Notes under the pieces: generated by a model
Seen by the model: only the letters and a program-made list of their open reading frames with translations
Database searches by the model: none
Told to the model about the DNA's origin: nothing
Shown: in pieces, positions 38,798-53,080 of the stretch
Layout of the letters: each line of letters begins with the position of its first letter
Position numbering within the stretch: position 1 is the stretch's first letter
From: Methanoregula sp.
GTDB lineage: Archaea > Halobacteriota > Methanomicrobia > Methanomicrobiales > Methanospirillaceae
Assembly: GCA_026394605.1 (NCBI GenBank)
Contig: JAPKXY010000030.1
Span: forward strand, 1 to 64,000
Length of the DNA: 64,000 bases
Reading direction: 5' to 3'
Program-made: the position numbers and the translations under genes

Positions 38798-38962
38798 TTG
38801 ATAATTCTCAATATTTTTTAAGAGAAAGTTGAAAATTCCTTATACAATGGACACCTTTTCGGTAGGGTTAATACAAACTTATTTCTTTACAAAGGGATAG
38901 CATCAAATATAAAAATAAAAAATTATTAAAATGATGCTGGAGTAAGTGTTGGGGAATTGAGA

Positions 38963-39466
38963 ATGACTAGACATAGATATAAAAATCAAAGAAGAAGAGA
39001 ACCGCGGAAAAAGCAGAATCATTATACTGAGGATCTGGAAGAACCCACCTCATTAAAGTCAATAGCATATATATTTGGTGTTATCGTAAAAACGATCTTT
39101 AAGGTTATTATTTGGATCATCAAACTACTTGGAGAATTTTTTGCAGACGTCCTAAAAGATTTAAGACAGGCGCAGGACCAAAAAAGCCGAATAAAATTCC
39201 AAGTTGAACCCCGCGTTATTCAACCTCCTAGTGGAACAATAATTGTAATCGATGGTAATCGTGTGATTTCCAACAAAAATATGACGCCAAAGGTTGATAG
39301 AAGGACTGCTACAGAAATTGCTTTGGGAGGACGTTTTGAAGGGGCCCAACAAGATGATGATAGATCAGCCACCGAGATTGTATTAGGAGGATCTTTCGGA
39401 GATAAACCTCGGAAAGGTAATAAAACAGCTAGTCAGAAGGTATTGGGTGGAAAATATTTAAGATAA
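38963..39466 (+). CDS. Membrane-associated protein with short LGG repeats
   Basis: A 167-residue basic protein with one long hydrophobic segment (about residues 30-60, FGVIVKTIFKVIIWIIKLLG). The C-terminal 60 residues hold three copies of a 14-residue pattern: RTATEIALGGRF, RSATEIVLGGSF and KTASQKVLGGKY. I do not recognise the family. It lies just before the convergent integrase and is flanked by AT-rich spacers. Confidence 0.6.
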   Translation: MTRHRYKNQRRREPRKKQNHYTEDLEEPTSLKSIAYIFGVIVKTIFKVIIWIIKLLGEFFADVLKDLRQAQDQKSRIKFQVEPRVIQPPSGTIIVIDGNRVISNKNMTPKVDRRTATEIALGGRFEGAQQDDDRSATEIVLGGSFGDKPRKGNKTASQKVLGGKYLR

Positions 39467-39481
39467 AATTGAATTAACTTT

Positions 39482-40069
39482 TTAAGTATTCCTCCCGTTC
39501 CACCCACTGACATACATCCTTATTTTTTGTTTTTCTTGATCTGAAAATACGACTGAAAGGTAATGTTTTTGCAAAATATCTACGGAGTGACCCAACGATG
39601 ACGATATCCGTAGTCCATCATCCGGGAAACATGCCATTAACCACGATACCCAGGTTTTCCTCGTAAGCTTTGGGGTTATTCCCTCATCACCGATACCTGC
39701 CTTTCTTGCAGCTCTTTTCAGGTCGAAAAACCAGGCAAAACGGCTTATATATTTTATTTCCTTATTTCTCACCGCACCCACAAAATCCCTGATTGAGCGA
39801 GACCCAATGTTGGAAAGCATTATCTCGCGTTCTCGTTGACCAGCCTTTTTCTTTAAAACCGCGGATTTTGGGAGATGAATATATCCTCGTTTTTCATTGA
39901 ACCATTCAGGATGTTGGAAAAATCTCCAGAATTCCGCACCGCGCATTCCGCTAAACAACATGGCATCAAAAATGAGCCGATGTTTTGGATTCAGATGAGA
40001 TCGAAGCGCTTCATACTCGTCGGGCGTGAGAATGCGCGCGCCTTGTTTGATTATTATATTTTGTGTCAT
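39482..40069 (-). CDS. Compact tyrosine recombinase (integrase)
   Basis: A 195-residue integrase consisting mostly of a catalytic domain. The first catalytic Arg is in FSGMRGAEFW, the HxxR position reads KLTRKTW (Lys replaces the usual His), and SLGHSVDILQKHYL gives the late His and the nucleophile Tyr. There is no N-terminal core-binding domain. It resembles small archaeal plasmid and virus integrases. It is convergent with the LGG-repeat gene and divergent from the SprT-like gene. Confidence 0.85.
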   Translation of the reverse strand: MTQNIIIKQGARILTPDEYEALRSHLNPKHRLIFDAMLFSGMRGAEFWRFFQHPEWFNEKRGYIHLPKSAVLKKKAGQREREIMLSNIGSRSIRDFVGAVRNKEIKYISRFAWFFDLKRAARKAGIGDEGITPKLTRKTWVSWLMACFPDDGLRISSSLGHSVDILQKHYLSVVFSDQEKQKIRMYVSGWNGRNT

Positions 40070-40235: not shown

Positions 40236-40913
40236 GTGAAATTAGAAACAACTTGGTTGGAGAACTGCCCGATTACCCTTTTATCCGGGAAAATTGTATA
40301 CTCTTTATTCACGATGACAACAGTAGCAAAAATGTATAAGGCTATATGTAAAACTTATTTCCCTTTATGGTCCCCGTGGGAATATCGATACAATCCCTCT
40401 TGGGGTAATTCTGGATATTGTAACTATAGACAAAAACTCATTTTTTTTGGCTCAATAAATCCCACCTTGGTAATTCATGAGATTTGTCATGCTGTTACTA
40501 AAGAATCTCACGGCAAACGGTGGCAAGCGCGGATGAAGAAAGCGTCAATAATGGCTAAAAAACAGGAGAACCCAGATTTATCGACTGAAATAATAAATGA
40601 CATCAGTTTATGTCTTAAAGATAATGAAAAAATGGGATTAGTAATTGCTAAAAGGATGATGTATGATCAAATTGAAAATGCAATCAATGAGTTATATTTA
40701 CAAATCGACGAAATTGGCATAACTCACATCGTCGATCACATTTTATCAGAGAACGGTATCAAAAAAGAATGGGATATGCCTTTATACAATAAAACGTTCC
40801 GACGGGGGATGGTTGTCGCTGAAAAAGCATTAAAGGAAAGAATGAGAGATGAGCAAATAAAACAGAGATTTACTCCAGTTACTAACCCCCTACCAACACG
40901 TCGAAAAACATAA
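40236..40913 (+). CDS. SprT-like zinc metallopeptidase
   Basis: A 225-residue protein starting at GTG. VIHEICHAVTKESHGKRW gives the HExxH zinc site and the downstream HG of SprT-like proteases, which in other systems cleave DNA-bound proteins. The remainder is charged and helical. Placed next to an integrase in a mobile block, it may help clear proteins from DNA or counter host factors, but that is inference. The family call rests on the motif alone. Confidence 0.7.
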   Translation: MKLETTWLENCPITLLSGKIVYSLFTMTTVAKMYKAICKTYFPLWSPWEYRYNPSWGNSGYCNYRQKLIFFGSINPTLVIHEICHAVTKESHGKRWQARMKKASIMAKKQENPDLSTEIINDISLCLKDNEKMGLVIAKRMMYDQIENAINELYLQIDEIGITHIVDHILSENGIKKEWDMPLYNKTFRRGMVVAEKALKERMRDEQIKQRFTPVTNPLPTRRKT

Positions 40914-41131
40914 AATTGAGCTTTTTTACATCCACTCGTTATTAGCTCTTTAGCCTACCAATACTTTCAATTGATTGTGACAGAAAAACTTTTAAAAATC
41001 ACGAAAAGATAGCATTTCGTAAATGGAGTGAGAGGTCAGCACATAAGTGGAAAATTGATTGGGGACGATATAAACACTTACTAAGGCCTAAAACGGAAAA
41101 TTTTATAAAACAATGGGATGAATGGACAAAG

Positions 41132-42073
41132 TTGATAGACTCTTCCAAAGATCCTTTTTATCGTTGCCCAAAGTGTGGCTGTATTCAATGTTATCCTTCT
41201 TTAGATAAATCAAAAAATGTTCTAATAAAAGATACTCGAATACATTGTGTAAACGATTGTGGTATAATAACTGAAAAAGATATAATCACATCGAAAGATA
41301 TTGAAAATGCAGAAATATTAGCCCAAAAGCAACTAGAAAGCGAAAAATTGTTATTGTTATCCTTGTTCAATCCATGTGTAGACTGGGCTAATAAACATGG
41401 TTTAAAGAAGGTTACTGAAACCGATATTGATGCTTTTCTTATAGAGAGAGATAGACCTTTTCCCCGGACTAAAAAAAGGTCACTTCGAACATTGGTTAAC
41501 TCATATATAGACTGGATTAAAGAACATAGTTTAAAGAAGGTTACTGAAGCCGAGGTTAATGCTTTTCTTTTAGACAGAAATATAGACCTTTCATCTCGGA
41601 TTAAAAAGGGATCTAAAAAAGGTTCACTTCATGAATTGATTAATCCATTTGTAAACTGGGCTAAAAAACATGATTTAAAGAAGGTTACTGAAATCCATGT
41701 TGACTCTTTTCTTTCAGAGAGAGATATAAACCTCTCACCTCGGACTGAAAGAAGGTCACTTCGTGATTTGGCTAATGCATATGTAGAATGGGCTAAAAAA
41801 CATGATTTAAGGAATGTTACTCAAATGGATATTGAAACTTTTCTTTTAGAGAGAAATATAGACCTTTCATCTCAAACAAAAAAAGGGTCTAAAAAAGGGT
41901 CGCTTGATGCATTGGTCAATCCATGTGTAGTATGGACTAAAAAACATGATTTAAAGAAGGTTACTGAAACCGATGTTGAAGATTTTCTTATAGAGAGTGA
42001 TATAGACCTTTCACCTCGAACAAAAAGGAGGGCACTTCGTCCATTGGTTAATAGCATAATAAAGCCAAAATAA
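41132..42073 (+). CDS. Zinc-ribbon protein with tandem recombinase core-binding-like repeats
   Basis: A 313-residue protein. Residues 10-45 hold cysteines (CPKC, CIQC, HCVNDC) of a zinc ribbon. From residue 75 to the end there are five repeats of 44 or 48 residues plus a 13-residue sixth: SLRDLxNxYVxWAKKHDL, then KKVTExDVxxFLxERxIxLS. Each resembles the first part of the SAM-like core-binding domain of tyrosine recombinases. Linkers alternate between short (TKRR) and long (TKKGSKKG). No catalytic domain follows. The start is TTG at 41132, but the frame is open back to 40946 and the upstream codons look protein-like, so the true 5' end is uncertain or damaged. Confidence 0.7.
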   Translation: MIDSSKDPFYRCPKCGCIQCYPSLDKSKNVLIKDTRIHCVNDCGIITEKDIITSKDIENAEILAQKQLESEKLLLLSLFNPCVDWANKHGLKKVTETDIDAFLIERDRPFPRTKKRSLRTLVNSYIDWIKEHSLKKVTEAEVNAFLLDRNIDLSSRIKKGSKKGSLHELINPFVNWAKKHDLKKVTEIHVDSFLSERDINLSPRTERRSLRDLANAYVEWAKKHDLRNVTQMDIETFLLERNIDLSSQTKKGSKKGSLDALVNPCVVWTKKHDLKKVTETDVEDFLIESDIDLSPRTKRRALRPLVNSIIKPK

Positions 42074-42392: not shown

Positions 42393-43049
42393 ATGAAATG
42401 TCCTCATTGTTTGACCGGTTATCACCCAAAACTTCATAGTATTCATTTGTATCCAGATTGTGAGGGAGCAAAAAGGATAGATCAGACTATATGTTCCGAA
42501 TGTGGTAAGTCAAGTATTTTTCTTCAGTTAGGTACTCATACAACCGCGGGTGGGCAATTAGTAGATTCTTTAGTAGAAAAAACACTATTGGTTTATCCAA
42601 AAGGAAGTATGCGACCTCCTTGTCCCATTGAAGTTCCAGATGATTTTTCAGAAGATTATAAAGAAGCGTGTTTAGTATTAGGAGATAGTCCTAAAGCCTC
42701 GGCTGCATTAAGTCGTAGATGTTTACAGCATATTTTGCGGGAAAAAGCCAATGTGACACCAAGTGAGTTGTCTAAAGAAATTCAAGAGATTTTAGATAGA
42801 AAAGTATTACCTTCACATTTATCAGAACATCTTGATGCAGTAAGAAATATCGGCAATTTTGCTGCACATCCGAATAAGAGTAAGATTACTGGAGAAATTA
42901 CATCCGTTGAACCTGGTGAAGCTGAATGGTGTCTCGATGTAGTAGAAGGTTTATTTGATTATTATTTTGTACAACCAGCAATAACGGCAAAAAAGAGGGC
43001 TGCATTAGATAAAAAATTAGCTGATGCGGGAAAACCCCCGATGAAATAA
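42393..43049 (+). CDS. DUF4145-domain protein
   Basis: A 218-residue protein. It opens with a zinc-ribbon-like pair (MKCPHCLTGYHP, then CSECGKSS) and continues with the DUF4145 helices, SEDYKEACLVLGDSPKASA, LSRRCLQHILREKANV and LDAVRNIGNFAAHPNK. DUF4145 proteins are common beside restriction, toxin and phage genes, and their function is not established. The neighbours here are accessory genes, which fits. Confidence 0.85.
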   Translation: MKCPHCLTGYHPKLHSIHLYPDCEGAKRIDQTICSECGKSSIFLQLGTHTTAGGQLVDSLVEKTLLVYPKGSMRPPCPIEVPDDFSEDYKEACLVLGDSPKASAALSRRCLQHILREKANVTPSELSKEIQEILDRKVLPSHLSEHLDAVRNIGNFAAHPNKSKITGEITSVEPGEAEWCLDVVEGLFDYYFVQPAITAKKRAALDKKLADAGKPPMK

Positions 43050-43175: not shown

Positions 43176-43367
43176 ATGGATTACCAAGCCATCAAACAAG
43201 AGATAACAGGCAAGAAAATCCTATTCGCTGCTGTACTCGGCATAATCATGGGACTTACCTTGCAGGCTGTAATTGTTATCTTTGGTCGATGGCGGTACAT
43301 GCCGGTGCTGTTCGTGCTTGTTGCATTGATTTTCATCCTGGCTGAAATATTATGGATTAATTGGTAA
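43176..43367 (+). CDS. Small two-helix membrane protein
   Basis: A 63-residue protein with two hydrophobic helices (ILFAAVLGIIMGLTLQAVIV and PVLFVLVALIFILAEILW) and a short basic N-terminus. It overlaps the convergent Cys-rich lipoprotein gene by 18 bases. Its GC is higher than its surroundings, suggesting a separate origin. No family is recognised; it could be a holin-like or accessory membrane protein. Confidence 0.6.
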   Translation: MDYQAIKQEITGKKILFAAVLGIIMGLTLQAVIVIFGRWRYMPVLFVLVALIFILAEILWINW

Positions 43368-44063
43368 GTTGGGACACACATGCTCCGGATCGCAAAAACC
43401 ACTGGAGCATGGGTAACAGAGATGAATTTTTTGACACCAAATCCAACCCGGTTGACAGGTCGGATAGGAATTCATGGTTGGTGGAAATGTAAATGTAAAG
43501 GGAATACATTTGCAATCATTTCCAATTCGATCAAGTGAAGGACATATAATCCATTGGTTATCACAACACTCCCCGCCTGCTTTGCAATACATAGTACCGC
43601 CACAGTTACATTTCACCGAACCCGTTGGATAACATCGATTATCCTCTCCCCTGAAATAATCGGTAGGGCACCTTTCCATCCACTGATTATTAATACACTC
43701 CCCACCTGCGGCGCAATACATAGTACCGCCACAGTTACATTTCACCAAACCCGTTGGATAACATCGATTATCCTCTCCCCTGAAATAATCGGTAGGGTTA
43801 CATTTCACTGAATCCGTTGGATGACATCGACTATCATCTCCCCTGAAATAATCAGTAGGGCACCTTTCCATCCACTGGTTATTAATACATTCCCCACCTG
43901 CGTCGCAATACATAGTACCGCCACAGTTACATTTCACTGAATCCGTTGGATGACATCGACTATCATCTCCACGAAATGATCCAGTGGGACAAGAGATACA
44001 CCCAGCAATTAAAAGAGAGAAAAGCAGTCCAAATACAAGAATTAATATTATTTTAATCTTCAT
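43350..44063 (-). CDS. Cysteine-rich repeat lipoprotein
   Basis: A 237-residue exported protein with a signal ending at LLIAGC (lipobox). The main body has tandem 43-residue units with six cysteines each (CPTDYFRGEDNRCYPTG, then VKCNCGGTMYC and GGECINNQW). At the DNA level the units are 129 bp and almost identical, and one is shortened to 63 bp. The C-terminus is also Cys-rich (CQPGWIWCQKIHLCYPC). It is probably a disulfide-rich surface protein; the function is unknown. Confidence 0.75.
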   Translation of the reverse strand: MKIKIILILVFGLLFSLLIAGCISCPTGSFRGDDSRCHPTDSVKCNCGGTMYCDAGGECINNQWMERCPTDYFRGDDSRCHPTDSVKCNPTDYFRGEDNRCYPTGLVKCNCGGTMYCAAGGECINNQWMERCPTDYFRGEDNRCYPTGSVKCNCGGTMYCKAGGECCDNQWIICPSLDRIGNDCKCIPFTFTFPPTMNSYPTCQPGWIWCQKIHLCYPCSSGFCDPEHVCPNLPINP

Positions 44064-44814: not shown

Positions 44815-47121
44815 TTATTGTATGCTCGCTTGTGTTTCTTTTAAGAACTCAATCATATCCGTTCCATGTACAGTACTTTGCCGGACCCAGTCGAACTTCA
44901 GTAACTCTTTGTAGAACAATTTCTTTCCTTTGGACGGGATTTCTTCAGATGCGCACCATCTTCCATATTCCGTCCATATATCTGTTTTGTTCATTTTTTG
45001 CCCGATGAGCTTCCTTTCTTTAATGAATCTGAGTACATCATCTTGTTGTTGATGATAATCCTCCAATGCCATCGTCATTTTATCACTGATTTTGAGATGA
45101 CCAAGCTGTTTGTACTTACGATACCCCTCTATAACCCACGAAAATATGCCAGCTGATTCTTCTTTTATCAGAATTTTGTGATAGAGGTCAATCTTTCGAT
45201 CCCTTGGGATTGTCCTGGTAAAGGGGAATAATACAATCCTTCGCCACATTGCGTGTGTTGTATCGGTGATATTCGGAAGCTCATTAAGCATCAACCATAA
45301 ATCAAACTGGGGATCGATATTATCCCATTCCCCGTATAAGAATCTACATTTTATCAGCTCTCCCCCCGTGATTCTTTTCAGCAATTCCGTATCTAAAATC
45401 TTCATCTGGGATTTTGATTTTTTATCGTCTGATGCTTCAGCTGCAATTACAAATCGTGCCCCTTTGAGAAGTGCAAGATCACTTCTCGGGTCCGTTACGG
45501 GTTTTACTGCAAAAGTATCAAAGCTCGTTTGGGTTGCATAATCAGCGAATAGTGACGTTAGGACATTGAAGGTGGTGCTCTTCCCATTTTCACCTGCTCC
45601 ATGAGCAAGGAATAATACTTGCTGGGGATTTTTCTCAATGAATGTATATCCTACAGCAATTTGGAAAGCTTCAGCAAGCTCATCATCATCACCGAATATG
45701 AATTTAATGTGTTCTTCCCATTTTGGACATGTTGCTCCTGGAATATAATCCACGTTCATCTTTTTTGAGATCCGATAATCTCTGTTAAACGGTTCAAGCT
45801 GCATTGCCGCAAGATCAAATACCCCATTATTAAGCACGATTTTTTCCTGAAGATTATCGATATCTCTTTGTTCAATAGCAATTTGCGGTTCTGATGATGC
45901 TAGCTTGGTAATATTTGTAATCTTAGTAATTGTGTCAAGCTGTTTGAGATGATTGAAGAATTTCTCCCGGATATACTTGTCGTGGATACTAGGGAGCTCG
46001 CTCCACATATCCAGCACCATTTTTTTCGTTAAATCCTGAACTTTGTTTGTTGTATCTATTTTGTATCGTCTCCCATCCCACACAAACCACTTATTCATTG
46101 TTTTGCAGAATAGGAGAGAATCACCAAATAAATCAGCAAACCGGTACGCAGCTCCATTTTCTGTAAGATGGTAGCCTTTCCATTGTTCTGCCACCTCTTT
46201 GTGTTGAATGTACTGACCAACAACACTTTGAAGAGCATTCTTTATTGTAAGCTCTCCGTAAGTGAGCTGGCCCCGTTTAGCGTCCCATTTGGCCCGATAA
46301 AGTTTGGATTTTCTGAATATCCTGTCAATTTGAACTGCATTTTTTGTATAGAATGCGAGATAATTACACAGAGCTTGATCGGCTTCTGATTGCGAGGGGT
46401 ATTTTGAAAAATCACCATTAATCAGGTCTCGGAAATGTTCGCGGTACTCCCGCTTCTTTGAGCTGTTAATGATCGATATTATCGTGTCATCTGATAGCTC
46501 ATCTTTTTCAATGTTAGGAAATGTACTCGCCGGATCCGGTCTGGGTGAATCATCAATCTTACTGTACAGTGAATCGATTGCAGCTTGTGAAGCTCGAATC
46601 CACGTATATTGAGACAGGACATTGCCAGTGACAGTTAAATATCGCCCGGAATCGTACATTTCAATATTAGCTTTTCTTGATCGATTACCGGGTTTTTTTC
46701 CAATACATAGAATGTGGATGCCCTTTCCGGATGGGGATATTTCTGCGTAGCTGTTAAATTGTTGGATATATCCTTCAATATCCGGATCAATCTCTCCATC
46801 ATCATTTATCACGTGGTCAAAATCTACTCCAATAATATCCGAATCTTTCGTAAGAACGAATCCTATACCATTGAATCCATTTACTTTAAAAGATTGTACG
46901 GCAACCTCAAACGTACTCCACGTTCCGGAGTTTGTGGTATCGGCTTTATCTCCAGTAATGGGGTTGTAAGGTATTTTCGTCACCAGTCCATCTTTCGTCT
47001 CATTTCTCCAAATGATCCAGTTAGGGATCATTTTGATTTGATCCGGTATATTACCAAAGTTAACGAGGTCCACGTCGATTTTATCCGGATGAGGAATCCA
47101 AGATGCAATTACCTCTCCCAT
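44815..47121 (-). CDS. PrimPol-D5-type replication protein (primase-helicase)
   Basis: A 768-residue plasmid/virus replication protein. An N-terminal primase-polymerase (about 1-190) shows the catalytic GVDFDH and SPSGKGIHILCIG. A middle D5_N-like linker is followed by a superfamily 3 helicase with Walker A FLAHGAGENGKSTTF, Walker B region GARFVIAAEAS, and sensor-like WLMLNELPN. A wH-like C-terminus ends the protein. It would prime and unwind the element's own DNA. The presence of such a protein makes the block a replicating element, at least in origin. Confidence 0.92.
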   Translation of the reverse strand: MGEVIASWIPHPDKIDVDLVNFGNIPDQIKMIPNWIIWRNETKDGLVTKIPYNPITGDKADTTNSGTWSTFEVAVQSFKVNGFNGIGFVLTKDSDIIGVDFDHVINDDGEIDPDIEGYIQQFNSYAEISPSGKGIHILCIGKKPGNRSRKANIEMYDSGRYLTVTGNVLSQYTWIRASQAAIDSLYSKIDDSPRPDPASTFPNIEKDELSDDTIISIINSSKKREYREHFRDLINGDFSKYPSQSEADQALCNYLAFYTKNAVQIDRIFRKSKLYRAKWDAKRGQLTYGELTIKNALQSVVGQYIQHKEVAEQWKGYHLTENGAAYRFADLFGDSLLFCKTMNKWFVWDGRRYKIDTTNKVQDLTKKMVLDMWSELPSIHDKYIREKFFNHLKQLDTITKITNITKLASSEPQIAIEQRDIDNLQEKIVLNNGVFDLAAMQLEPFNRDYRISKKMNVDYIPGATCPKWEEHIKFIFGDDDELAEAFQIAVGYTFIEKNPQQVLFLAHGAGENGKSTTFNVLTSLFADYATQTSFDTFAVKPVTDPRSDLALLKGARFVIAAEASDDKKSKSQMKILDTELLKRITGGELIKCRFLYGEWDNIDPQFDLWLMLNELPNITDTTHAMWRRIVLFPFTRTIPRDRKIDLYHKILIKEESAGIFSWVIEGYRKYKQLGHLKISDKMTMALEDYHQQQDDVLRFIKERKLIGQKMNKTDIWTEYGRWCASEEIPSKGKKLFYKELLKFDWVRQSTVHGTDMIEFLKETQASIQ

Positions 47122-47820: not shown

Positions 47821-47990
47821 CTCAGATCTCAGCAGCTCTGAGTACATGAAAATACTCAGATCTCAGCAGCCCTCAATAGGATGCAAACACTCAGATCTCA
47901 GCAGCTCTCAGTACATGCAAATACCAAGATCTCAGCAGCTCTCAGTACATGCAAATCTCAGTACATGCATACGCTCAGATCTCAGCTCAC
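47821..47990. repeat. Tandem 34-bp iteron-like direct repeats
   Basis: Four tandem units of 33-35 bp (47821-47854, 47855-47889, 47890-47923, 47924-47956) each contain AGATCTCAGCAG; units 1, 3 and 4 continue with TACATG. Partial units follow to about 47990. There are no gaps and the unit contains BglII-like palindromes (AGATCT). The repeats lie in a gene-free stretch of about 550 bases (47534-48087) upstream of the RHH-PrimPol operon. They are likely an origin, partition or incompatibility site. Confidence 0.7.
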
Positions 47991-48882: not shown

Positions 48883-50295
48883 TTATCTCGTTGTAAAAAT
48901 AGTGCGTTTTTTAGGTGATTTTTCCCTTATAGTAATTTTTTCATCATCATTCCCAATCGTGATATTTGCTAATTGCTCTGGCGATATAAGTGATGGTGAT
49001 TTCTTAGGAGCAACAGGTGATGGTTCCCGCGGCGCTTGTAATCGTGGGATATTCTTGATACCAGAAATCTCATCCACCTTATCCACCACTTTAAATCTCT
49101 TGATCAGTTCTTCAGTCATTGTATTCTTCCACTGCTGGAACTCTTCACGGAGCGTTTGGTTTTCTGACCGTATTTCCATCAATTTTTGTTTTAATTCGAT
49201 ATTTTCAATATGAATATCCTGGGTTTTCTCCCGGATATTCTTCATCTCCTCTTTTGTTTTCACAATCTCTTCGACATTATCGTCATAAATCCTGAGGTAC
49301 GGTTCGCCTTTAAGATATATTTCCAACATTTTTTCCAAAACTGGTCGATTATATGTCCTTTCTAACGTCGATAGATGGCCGGTAAAAAACTTTATATAGA
49401 ACTCAGGAATCCCAGAATACCCTAAATTTGTGACAAAATATTTGCGGAAAAGATGAAAATGGATTGTTGATCTTCCGGTGTCCTGGTCTTTTCTCATCAA
49501 TCCCGATTTGTAAAGAGCTGTTTTTAAAATATTTTCGGCGTTGTTCTTACCAAATGTGAAAATGCGGGCATCATCTTTTGATGTTTTCACACGGAAACGG
49601 CCACGGCTACGCCCTATAATATAATCCGTGTATTTCTCTCGTATTGCTAGCCATTGTTTGAGAAGTTCTACAGCCTCTTTATTTATGAACGTGGTACGAG
49701 AATGAACATTTTTGGTACCCGTGCCATTCTTTTTCCGCCCTTTTAAAGATATAATCCCATAAGTATCATGGATTTTTACATCATCAAGCGTGAGGTTCAA
49801 TGCTTCACCCAACCTCAATCCTGATGACACGATTAGCATGATAAGAGTCTTTAGCTTCAGGTCTGCAACGTTGAGTATCTGCCGTATTTTTTCTTTCGTC
49901 AGGTCATCCTCTTCTGATATAGGCCCGCCAGAACTAATTTTATTTCGCAGGTTTTTCTCTTGTTTTCTCGTCAGCTCAACGTTGTTATAGAGCATGAGCT
50001 CTTTCACGGCATTTAGGTAATACGATGACGTAGTAGGTGCGTATAATTTCTCACAAGTGTTCCCAAAATGAATCAAGTCAGCTAAGTAATCCCTTTTCTC
50101 CCGAAAATAACGGTCAGCAAAATCTTCAAATTTTTCCTTCTCTTTTTCAGAAACTCTTTTTCCTTTCCGCGTGAAACCGTATGTGAATGAAAGAAAAGCT
50201 ATTACACCGGAATAATAGCTCGATCTCGTTGAACTCACACTATACTGGCCGAGAAAGGAAGCAATCCGTGCCATGCTGGTCAATGGGTGCGTCAT
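48883..50295 (-). CDS. Tyrosine recombinase (integrase) with C-terminal coiled coil
   Basis: A 470-residue integrase. An N-terminal core-binding region (about 1-140) precedes the catalytic domain, with Arg in SSGLRLGEAL, HFHLFRKYF (HxxR) and FTGHLSTLERTYNR (late His and Tyr). About 130 residues follow, beginning with a coiled coil (EEIVKTKEEMKNIREK). The start at 50295 lies about 25 bases after a TATA box. The gene is divergent from alaS with 43 bases between start codons, which places the right end of the element there. It probably catalyses integration and excision. Confidence 0.9.
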   Translation of the reverse strand: MTHPLTSMARIASFLGQYSVSSTRSSYYSGVIAFLSFTYGFTRKGKRVSEKEKEKFEDFADRYFREKRDYLADLIHFGNTCEKLYAPTTSSYYLNAVKELMLYNNVELTRKQEKNLRNKISSGGPISEEDDLTKEKIRQILNVADLKLKTLIMLIVSSGLRLGEALNLTLDDVKIHDTYGIISLKGRKKNGTGTKNVHSRTTFINKEAVELLKQWLAIREKYTDYIIGRSRGRFRVKTSKDDARIFTFGKNNAENILKTALYKSGLMRKDQDTGRSTIHFHLFRKYFVTNLGYSGIPEFYIKFFTGHLSTLERTYNRPVLEKMLEIYLKGEPYLRIYDDNVEEIVKTKEEMKNIREKTQDIHIENIELKQKLMEIRSENQTLREEFQQWKNTMTEELIKRFKVVDKVDEISGIKNIPRLQAPREPSPVAPKKSPSLISPEQLANITIGNDDEKITIREKSPKKRTIFTTR

Positions 50296-50308
50296 CTTAT
50301 AAAACTTT

Positions 50309-50320
50309 GTATAAAAATAC
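50309..50320. promoter_or_regulatory. Shared TATA box between integrase and alaS
   Basis: GTATAAAAATAC is an imperfect inverted repeat read as a TATA box on both strands. It lies about 20-30 bases before alaS and about 14-25 before the integrase start. Both genes appear to use it, with nearly leaderless transcripts. Confidence 0.45.
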
Positions 50321-50338
50321 CACATGGACGTGTATTTA

Positions 50339-53080
50339 ATGCTCGAAGAAGAGTACCAGATCGATTATTTTAAAACACAGGGCCTGACCCGGAAGGTATG
50401 CAGGAGTTGCAGTTCAGCGTTCTGGACACGGTAGTCCTCCCGCGAGATCTGTGGCGACGCTCCCTGCGAACCCTACAATTTTATCGGCAACCCGGTTTTT
50501 TCCTGCAGCACACTCGATAGCATGAGGGAAGCGTTCCTATCATTTTTTGAAAAAAACGGGCACACCCGCATCGCACGGTATCCGGTAGTTGCACGGTGGC
50601 GGGATGATATTTATCTTACCATCGCTTCGATTGCTGACTTCCAGCCTTTTGTTACCGCCGGAATAGTGCCCCCGCCAGCAAACCCGCTTACGATCTCCCA
50701 GCCCTGCATCCGGTTAAATGATCTCGATTCTGTCGGGAGATCGGGACGGCACCTCACGATGTTCGAGATGATGGCGCACCATGCCTTCAATTCCCCGACC
50801 GATGAGGTGTACTGGAAGAACCGAACGGTCGAGCTCTGCGACCAGTTCCTCCAGTCCATCGGTGCTGACCTCAACCGCGTGACCTACAAGGAACACCCGT
50901 GGATAGGTGGAGGCAACGCCGGTCCGAGTCTCGAAATACTTATCGGGGGGCTGGAAGTCGCGACGCTCGTTTTTATGAGCCTCGGCAGACAGAAGACCGG
51001 ACAACCGGGGATCGATCTGAACGGGGAAATGTATTATCCGATGAAGACACGGATTGTCGATACAGGTTACGGGCTTGAACGGCTGGTCTGGGCATCGAAG
51101 GGTTCACCCACGATTTATGATGCTGTCTTTCCCGAAATGGTGAGCCGGGTGATGAGCGCTGCGGGTCTCTCCCACATGCTGGAGAACAAGGAGTTCACGA
51201 AAATCCTCGCGCTCAACGCGAAATATGCCGGGCTCATGGATATCTCCAGCTCCAACCTCTACCAGCTAAGGAAAAAGGTTGCAGCGTCAATCGATGTGCC
51301 GCTCGATAAGCTGGACCGTATGATCACCCCGATGGAGAAGGTGTATGCTATTGTCGACCACACCCGCTGCCTTGCCTATATGCTCGGGGACTGCATCGTC
51401 CCCTCCAATGTCAGGGAGGGCTACCTCGCACGGCTCGTCATCCGGCGGACGCTGCGGATGATGAACGAGCTGAAACTACAGGACAACCTTGCCGACCTGA
51501 TCGAGAAGCAGATGCGCATTGTCGGCTTTAAATCCTTTGAACAGGACATCGCTGTTGTTCGCGAGATCGTTGACCGCGAAGTCGAGAAATATGCCACAAC
51601 CCTCGATCGCGGTACACGAATCGTCCAGAAGATTGCAAAGACCTACAAAGCCAAGAGCCAGCGCGTTCCGATGAGCGAGATCATCACCCTGTACGACTCC
51701 CATGGCATTCCGCCAGAAATGATCAAGGATATTGCGACAAACGAAGGTGCGGTTGTCGATCTCCCTGACAATTTCTATTCGCAGATTGCGCAAATGCACT
51801 CCGAATCGAAAAAGGAAGAGGGGGAGGATGCACAGGCAAAATACCTGGAACGGGTGCAGGGGCTTCCATCAACGAAGAAACTCTACTACGAACAACCTGC
51901 CGATATCGAATTTGAGGGAGTCGTGCTTGACTTTTTTGACGGGTTTGTGGTCATGGACCAGACCCTCTTTTACCCGGAGGGCGGTGGGCAGCCCTCGGAT
52001 ACCGGTACGCTGGTCTCCGCTGAGAGCATGGTCCGTGTTGATGGCGCGCTCAAGATCGGGGAGGTGATCCTCCACCACATCAGTGGGGGTGTCCTGAAGC
52101 GCGGTGACCGCGTTAAGGGGATGGTCGATGAGGAGCGGCGCTGGTCGTTGATGCGCCACCACACTGCAACGCATATCCTGCTCCATGCTGTAAAAGAGGT
52201 ACTTGGCGTCCACATCCACCAGGCGGGGGCGCAGAAAGGGCAAGAAAGCTCGCGGCTCGATATCCGGCACTTCAAGCATATCACCATGGATGAGATGCGT
52301 CAGATCGAGATCGCCGCCAACCGCATGATCATGGCAAGCCAGCCGGTCGAGATCGCTGTGGAGGACCGGACCCGGGCAGAGCAGAAATACGGTTTTATTC
52401 TCTACCAGGGGGGTGTTCCTCCCGGTCGGGACATTCGCGTCGTAAAAGTCGCCGGCGACATCGAAGCCTGCGCGGGCACGCACTGCAGGAATACCGGGGA
52501 AGTTGGTGTGGTCAAACTCATCCGTGTTGAGCATATCCAGGACGGCATTGAACGGATCGAGTTTGCAGCTGGTATCGCTGCACTGTATTATATGCAGCAC
52601 CTTGAGCAAATTGTCAATTCTTCAGCTGATGTACTCTCCGTCCAGCAGGAAAACCTGCCGGCTACGGTGACGCGGTTTTTTACTGAATGGAAGGACTTAA
52701 AAAAAGAGATCGAACGCTTAAGCCGGACTCTGGTGGAGATCGAGACAAAAAACCTGGTTGCCGAATCGATCGGGGGAATATCAGTTGTTATTAAGCGTCT
52801 GGATCTTCCTGCACGCGAACTTTCAGCCATTGCCATCGGGGTATCGGCAAACGGCGGTGTTGCACTCCTTGCGGGCAGCACCGAGAGCGCCCGTGTGGTG
52901 CTCGCATCAGGCGACTCCCGTGTGAATGCCGGAGAAATCATCGGGCAGGTCTGCCTCCTCCTTGGTGGCAAGGGTGGAGGTAAGCCGACACTTGCGCAGG
53001 GCGGCGGGCCGAATGTGGCGCAGATCGACTTTGCATTGAAGGTCGGGCGCGAACGGATTATTGCAGCACTTCATGGCTGA
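50339..53080 (+). CDS. alaS: Alanyl-tRNA synthetase, with in-frame TAG at codon 32
   Basis: Archaeal-type AlaRS charges tRNA-Ala. The frame from ATG at 50339 reads as an archaeal N-terminus (MLEEEYQIDYFKTQGLTRKV, then CRSCSSAFWTR), has TAG at 50432-50434, and continues with EICGDAPCEPYNFIGNP. Frame and zinc-binding cysteines are intact on both sides. The catalytic core, the editing domain with its HxxxH (MRHHTATHILLHAV), CAGTHC and a C-terminal DHHA1 part (GKGGGKPTLAQGGG) follow. Counting the TAG codon it has 913 residues, normal length. A start at Met62 (50522) would give a bacterial-like N-terminus but has no ribosome site. The stop overlaps the next gene by eight bases. Confidence 0.9.

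Follow-up and report, generated by a model that had tools for sequence, protein, structure and literature searches.

The window analysed here, a stretch of 64,000 nucleotides from the genome of a Methanoregula species, encodes a protein with five tandem helical modules of about 46 residues each (41363-42055). We read this protein, with a probability of roughly 0.5 and chiefly on the basis of sequence comparisons, as a non-catalytic and probably DNA-binding component of an integrated archaeal element, built of modules that would each represent half of an integrase core-binding (CB) domain. CB domains normally occur once, and rarely twice, ahead of a catalytic domain. The literature that we searched holds no description of a five-fold array of CB modules, which agrees with a preliminary description of this DNA that had called the architecture undescribed, although a stand-alone CB-like protein (MpsB) and proteins with a double CB (RitA) are on record.

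The array gene and its repeats

The array frame extends from 40946 to 42073 on the forward strand and comprises 375 open codons with no internal stop. The preliminary description had taken this entire span for the gene, which does not hold, as position 40946 is no start codon but the first base after a TAG stop (40943-40945). The first ATG, GTG or TTG in the frame is the TTG at 41132, with all cysteines and modules downstream of it, and initiation there gives a product of 313 residues (Table 1). The 62 codons upstream of this TTG could reflect a lost start, an unusual start or an untranslated segment. If the preceding TAG were read through, the frame would extend to a TTG at 40916; we did not adopt UAG read-through as an explanation for an extended N terminus, as TAG terminates other genes in the window with no meaningful extension. 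Overall, to judge from its sequence, the gene looks intact.

The modules are anchored by the motif L[KR][KN]VT at frame residues 153, 196, 244, 288 and 336, i.e. at spacings of 43, 48, 44 and 48, so that the alternation of 44 and 48 residues first reported is nearly exact, the opening spacing being 43. The 48-residue spacings are distinguished by an extra KKGS (SSRIKKGSKKGSL, SSQTKKGSKKGSL), which bears out the earlier suggestion of a two-repeat duplication unit; likewise, a 276-nucleotide segment, equivalent to 92 amino acids or two modules, is present in two copies with 80% identity and contributed to the array. Tandem Repeats Finder (TRF) run on the array gene recovered a 144-nucleotide period (score 570) and a 276-nucleotide period with 2.5 copies (score 852), and the repeats are far above chance. 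Whereas the five repeats initially counted correspond to the five anchored modules, the "partial sixth" repeat (SPRTKRRALRPLVNSIIKPK) is the helix with which a module regularly closes, because the single-module relatives discussed below end in the same way (SPRTKKRALQAVVNSKIKNP; LPQTQRALYAMVNVQLKTKR).

The cysteine pattern behind the N-terminal zinc ribbon that had been proposed is indeed present, with knuckles CPKCG and CVNDCG, but a profile search for a zinc ribbon in the array protein gave no significant match, the Lar_restr_allev profile reaching only E=0.037, which is below the cut-off. The absence of a catalytic domain (R..K..HxxR..H/W..Y), also part of that account, was corroborated, with no PF00589 match to the array protein in Pfam and none in NCBIfam.

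Table 1. Coordinates of the array gene, its parts, its relatives and features of the surrounding island
Feature	Position	Strand	Remarks
Open codons 5' of the TTG (62)	40946..41131	+	Without ATG/GTG/TTG; preceded by TAG 40943-40945
Coding sequence	41132..42073	+	From first usual in-frame start codon TTG; 313 aa; TAA 42071-42073
Cysteine knuckles CPKCGCIQC ... HCVNDCG	41165..41278	+	Probable zinc-binding N-terminal part; sequence pattern
Helix IENAEILAQKQLESEK leading into module 1	41285..41365	+	Alignment with both single-module relatives
Module 1	41363..41503	+	Profile match
Module 2, with KKGS insert	41492..41647	+	Profile match
Module 3	41636..41779	+	Profile match
Module 4, with KKGS insert	41768..41923	+	Profile match
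Module 5, with closing helix	41912..42055	+	Profile match
Copy A of the 276-nt duplication unit, with two modules	41462..41737	+	80% identical to copy B
Copy B of the 276-nt duplication unit	41738..42013	+	80% identical to copy A
P4/D5-type primase	44815-47121		In the island; profile matches
Four 34-bp direct repeats CTCAGATCTCAGCAGCTCTCAGTACATGCAAATA	47821-47961		Between primase and integrase
Integrase	48883-50325		Adjoins alaS; PF00589 2.5e-17
Single-module relative, Methanoregula sp. OWC_0057 (G086)	L011:5326-6162	+	278 aa
Single-module relative, G354	L023:1460-2077	-	205 aa

Relation of the module to integrase core-binding domains

Profile comparisons make it likely that the module is homologous to the CB domains of integrases. 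When the whole array protein is compared with Pfam, Phage_int_SAM_4 scores 41.5 bits (cut-off 27) and SAM_1 26.6 bits (cut-off 22.3). These matches were not accepted at face value, since they are reproduced neither by single modules, which give E-values of 0.0057-0.11 or no match (at most 17.5 bits) with unrelated families close behind, nor by the single-module relatives, for which Pfam gave no SAM match; the pass of the whole protein is therefore inflated by repetition.

A different line of evidence comes from 49 matches to the module profile, nearly all below significance, which were examined in open frames of at least 75 residues from 394 genomes. Eight of these 49 matches are tyrosine recombinases of one archaeal family, each being hit inside its CB domain, which constitutes an enrichment for the CB domains of this family; they comprise an integrase, L034, and seven relatives with 35-55% identity to it (seven of the eight carry PF00589), and are mutually related rather than independent. 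A radical-SAM family likewise accounts for 8 of the 49, via one short conserved motif. HHalign comparison of the module with the integrase CB domains selected in this manner gave a probability of 96.2% and a score of 49.5 (shuffle maximum 17.9), a result that we did not rely on because of its selection bias, and the comparison was repeated with unselected members. Searching the phylum with L034 provided 21 members of the family that had not been picked up through the module, and against the resulting CB profile (n=21) the module gave a probability of 91.6% with a score of 34.7, as against 9.5±2.0 and a maximum of 22.1 for 150 column shuffles; the two single-module relatives alone gave 72% and a score of 27.2. 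The comparison of a repeat with integrase CB profiles for which the preliminary description had called turned out in favour of the relationship.

The register was constant across comparisons, passing from the end of helix A through d(l)kkVT, helix B (dvedFl.eR) and SpxT to helix C, and in the module-selected integrase set the long-short-long unit aligns with helices A-C over 52 columns. The CB domain of the archaeal tyrosine recombinases of the L034 family (G309:C1:216299; PF13495/PF02899) has the same order of elements as the module, namely a long helix, d(l)kkVT, a short helix with eVedfIl.R, SpxT and a further long helix; it differs from the array in that a module amounts to about half a CB domain, and in that the array has five modules in tandem with no catalytic domain following them. 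The CB domains of XerA from Methanomicrobia, at 3.9%, are indistinguishable from background in comparison with the module, and XerA was set aside as a CB reference on falling to background level once its one module-selected row was removed. The relationship therefore concerns a single branch of the archaeal integrases, or it has decayed elsewhere. Given that the XerA CB domain consists of two crossed hairpins with two helices each (PMC3646895), one module looks like one hairpin, and the alignments support the view that the equivalent of a module is a pair of one long and one short helix, or about half a CB domain. The resemblance to core-binding domains noted at the outset accordingly survives as a distant relation at the profile level, but the notion of a whole SAM-like domain in every repeat does not.

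Structure prediction for the 375-residue frame without an alignment was poor (pLDDT 53.5). A model of two modules based on five sequences (pLDDT 78.7, pTM 0.47) displays alternating helices of about 20 and about 10 residues, but no solved or viral structure matched: Foldseek searches of the PDB and BFVD with this model (pLDDT 79, pTM 0.47) recovered no CB domain, which counts against CB homology, though weakly in view of the quality of the model. Sequence searches of the PDB also gave no match.

Distribution, origin and divergence of the modules

A profile built from the modules of the array was searched against 232 genomes of the order and 394 of the phylum. In the order it retrieved the window genome itself and one strong relative, from Methanoregula sp. 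OWC_0057 (E=1.8e-27), and in the phylum one further relative, from the genome G354 (2.5e-18). The 58 genomes searched from the class to which G354 belongs showed no further members of the family, and viral contigs, phages and plasmids yielded no homologues; a search of genome contigs for module homologues returned one. The occurrence of only two relatives in such a patchy pattern indicates a rare, patchily distributed archaeal domain, with the five-fold array known from one genome. The single-module relatives fall under no family in Pfam, NCBIfam or PADLOC, and these comparisons thus define a small archaeal module, C-terminal in position, that had not been annotated before.

Homologues with other repeat counts, the search for which had been advised, thus do exist, and both relatives possess one module, located at the C terminus, with differing N-terminal parts. 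The helix preceding the module is common to the array and both relatives (KAE.LAQKQL.SE; IKKAERLVQKQLEQQRE, IEKAEMLAQKQLDSERE), and the G354 protein additionally has a cysteine-rich N terminus, as does the array protein. Since both relatives carry one C-terminal module, the array is the product of a tandem amplification of this unit. In G354, the module gene is followed directly downstream, at the end of the contig, by a gene for an ATPase-like protein (L023:1-1260, minus strand; PADLOC TmtA 4e-111).

Changes between modules are unevenly distributed. In columns where the two outside relatives agree they affect 10 of 70 cells, as against 35 of 95 in the remaining columns (Fisher p=0.0014), and 8 of the 14 columns common to both relatives do not vary among the five modules, compared with 1 of 19 of the others. 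That the conserved columns of the relatives are also kept between modules indicates that the protein framework has been under selection. Across the modules as a whole, there are 49 non-synonymous and 7 synonymous changes (omega about 2, p=0.058), so that the non-synonymous class is no rarer than an unconstrained sequence would lead one to expect; p-values for positive selection range from 0.007 to 0.14 with the mutation model. This pattern fits relaxed or diversifying change at positions outside the framework.

Proposed function, alternatives and genomic setting

Under our preferred reading the protein would consist of cysteine (zinc) knuckles, a connecting helix and then the five tandem modules. 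Each module would supply one long-short helix pair and the first part of the long helix that follows, with its closing long helix continuing and doubling as the opening helix of its successor, and two successive modules (92 residues) would pack into the equivalent of one four-helix CB domain. Such a chain of CB-like hairpins would most likely lie along duplex DNA, where it might mark, bridge or mask a site, in a manner similar to the assistance at oriT proposed for the CB-only protein MpsB, and the N-terminal knuckles might provide a zinc site or a second contact. The preliminary description had imagined that such an array could read, for example, the iterons of the element, which would be the repeats at 47821-47961. 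If correct, five half-CB units divorced from catalysis would show that the grip of an integrase can be converted into a repeat-based DNA binder. A more specific and improbable version has the array as a DNA-reading solenoid, in which every helix pair would touch a constant number of base pairs and a longer array would accordingly read a longer site, the framework residues being fixed and others free to diversify between modules; if true, it would represent a new, integrase-derived class of repeat-protein DNA binders. The array would also lend itself to studying how many base pairs are read per hairpin.

Two described systems offer partial parallels. MpsB of Salmonella genomic island 1 (SGI1) is a 98-residue CB-like protein (PF13495) needed for transfer, and is co-transcribed with the recombinase-like MpsA, the two forming a pair (PMC6414798). 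Like the array protein, MpsB is CB-like, devoid of a catalytic domain and encoded by a mobile element; however, it has a single domain in its 98 residues and an operon partner in MpsA, and is likened to the array by description and not by sequence. In contrast to the MpsB operon, the recombinase-like gene near the array lies on the opposite strand and has relatives unaccompanied by an array. The RitA tyrosine recombinases have two sequential CB domains in one protein (PMC8138268) and so share with the array protein successive CB-type units in a single chain, but they combine their two CBs with a catalytic domain, which the array protein lacks, placing it outside RitA.

The array might instead act off DNA as a CB-hairpin-derived alpha-solenoid, a scaffold for protein-protein contacts or oligomerisation that, for example, tethers the recombinases of the element or another nucleoprotein complex. 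Helical hairpin repeats are commonly scaffolds, the net charge of the array is modest (+12 over 237 residues), most of the conserved columns of the module hold hydrophobic or structural residues (L, W, L, V, T, F, L), and the relatives carry the single C-terminal module on otherwise different proteins. We nevertheless consider this unlikely, because the nearest sequence relatives of the module are DNA-binding domains and the array is basic (pI 9.6), with stretches such as SPRTKRRSL and KKGSKKGS. It is also rather improbable that the array sits at the att or core sites of the short recombinase encoded at 39482-40069 or of the integrase, as a split half or a directionality factor. The short recombinase, 195 residues long and catalytic-only, is encoded 1.1 kb from the array gene, and MpsA and MpsB set a precedent for a recombinase-like and CB-like pair (PMC6414798); yet its seven relatives of 194-223 residues occur in genomes in which no array or module was found, so that the protein does not depend on the array and a split recombinase with it is unlikely, the two genes are on opposite strands, and the module is closer to another integrase family than to either candidate partner.

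There is a small chance that the gene is decaying or drifting, a recent functionless tandem expansion in a frame that has lost its start codon. The first 62 codons without a usual start, the high share of non-synonymous changes between modules and the restriction of the array to one genome would agree with this, whereas the 313 stop-free codons in DNA of about 35% G+C, the far greater invariance of the columns shared with the relatives and the existence of a TTG start ahead of every cysteine and module argue otherwise. Least favoured by the evidence, and very improbable, is an unrelated small helical domain, such as a DEK_C-like three-helix unit, with the CB likeness arising by convergence of an L..VT..dv..FL motif. 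The DEK C-terminal domain (PF08766, 1q1v) resembles the module in comprising about 55 residues arranged as helix, L..VT, helix and helix, and no other structure of domain size was matched by the full model, itself of low confidence (probability 0.44, TM 0.54 by target), but that match disappeared with the better two-module model and has no counterpart in a sequence-profile match. DEK_C was rejected as a candidate, having no match in the window genome or that of the Methanoregula relative at E<=10, with a stray 11.6-bit match elsewhere in G354; moreover, the score against the unbiased CB profile is well above those of shuffles.

The window genome is an archaeal assembly of 1.62 Mb in 60 contigs, and the array gene is contained in a low-G+C island of it, from about 37 to 50.3 kb (34-40% versus about 50-55%). 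With its primase, integrase and direct repeats this island is probably an integrated element, and the 34-bp repeats are a candidate for its replication origin. Attachment repeats of at least 12 nucleotides were not found between 36.9-37.8 kb and 50.2-50.6 kb, and a search of the island for RNA families gave none. The array gene is directly preceded by a gene for a short SprT-like protein (40236-40913, plus strand; PF10263 1e-4, below the cut-off), and beyond it that of the short tyrosine-recombinase-like protein (39482-40069, minus strand), which begins at the catalytic domain (R..KLTR..LGH..Y), matches phrog_1 integrase (3.6e-10), has no Pfam family and has its 194-223-residue relatives in seven other Methanomicrobiales genomes. 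Further upstream, a probable membrane protein (38957-39466, plus strand; no Pfam family) shows a hydrophobic stretch and a thrice-repeated C-terminal motif (ATEIALGGRF, ATEIVLGGSF, ASQKVLGGKY). On the other side of the array lie genes for a DUF4145 protein with cysteine knuckles (42393-43049, plus strand), which is matched by the PADLOC phage-defence model PD-T7-4 (2.8e-20) and by phrog_1305 (1.4e-29), and for a cysteine-rich lipoprotein-like protein (43350-44063, minus strand) with internal tandem repeats of 192 and 63 nucleotides. In the adjoining alaS, the frame from the ATG at 50338 (MLEEEYQIDYFKTQGLTRKVCRSCSSAFWTR) meets an in-frame TAG at 50432-50434 and then continues (SSREICGDAPCEPYNF...); with this TAG read as a residue, a single frame of 918 residues runs from 50324, and the TAG could represent a nonsense mutation, an assembly error or recoding.
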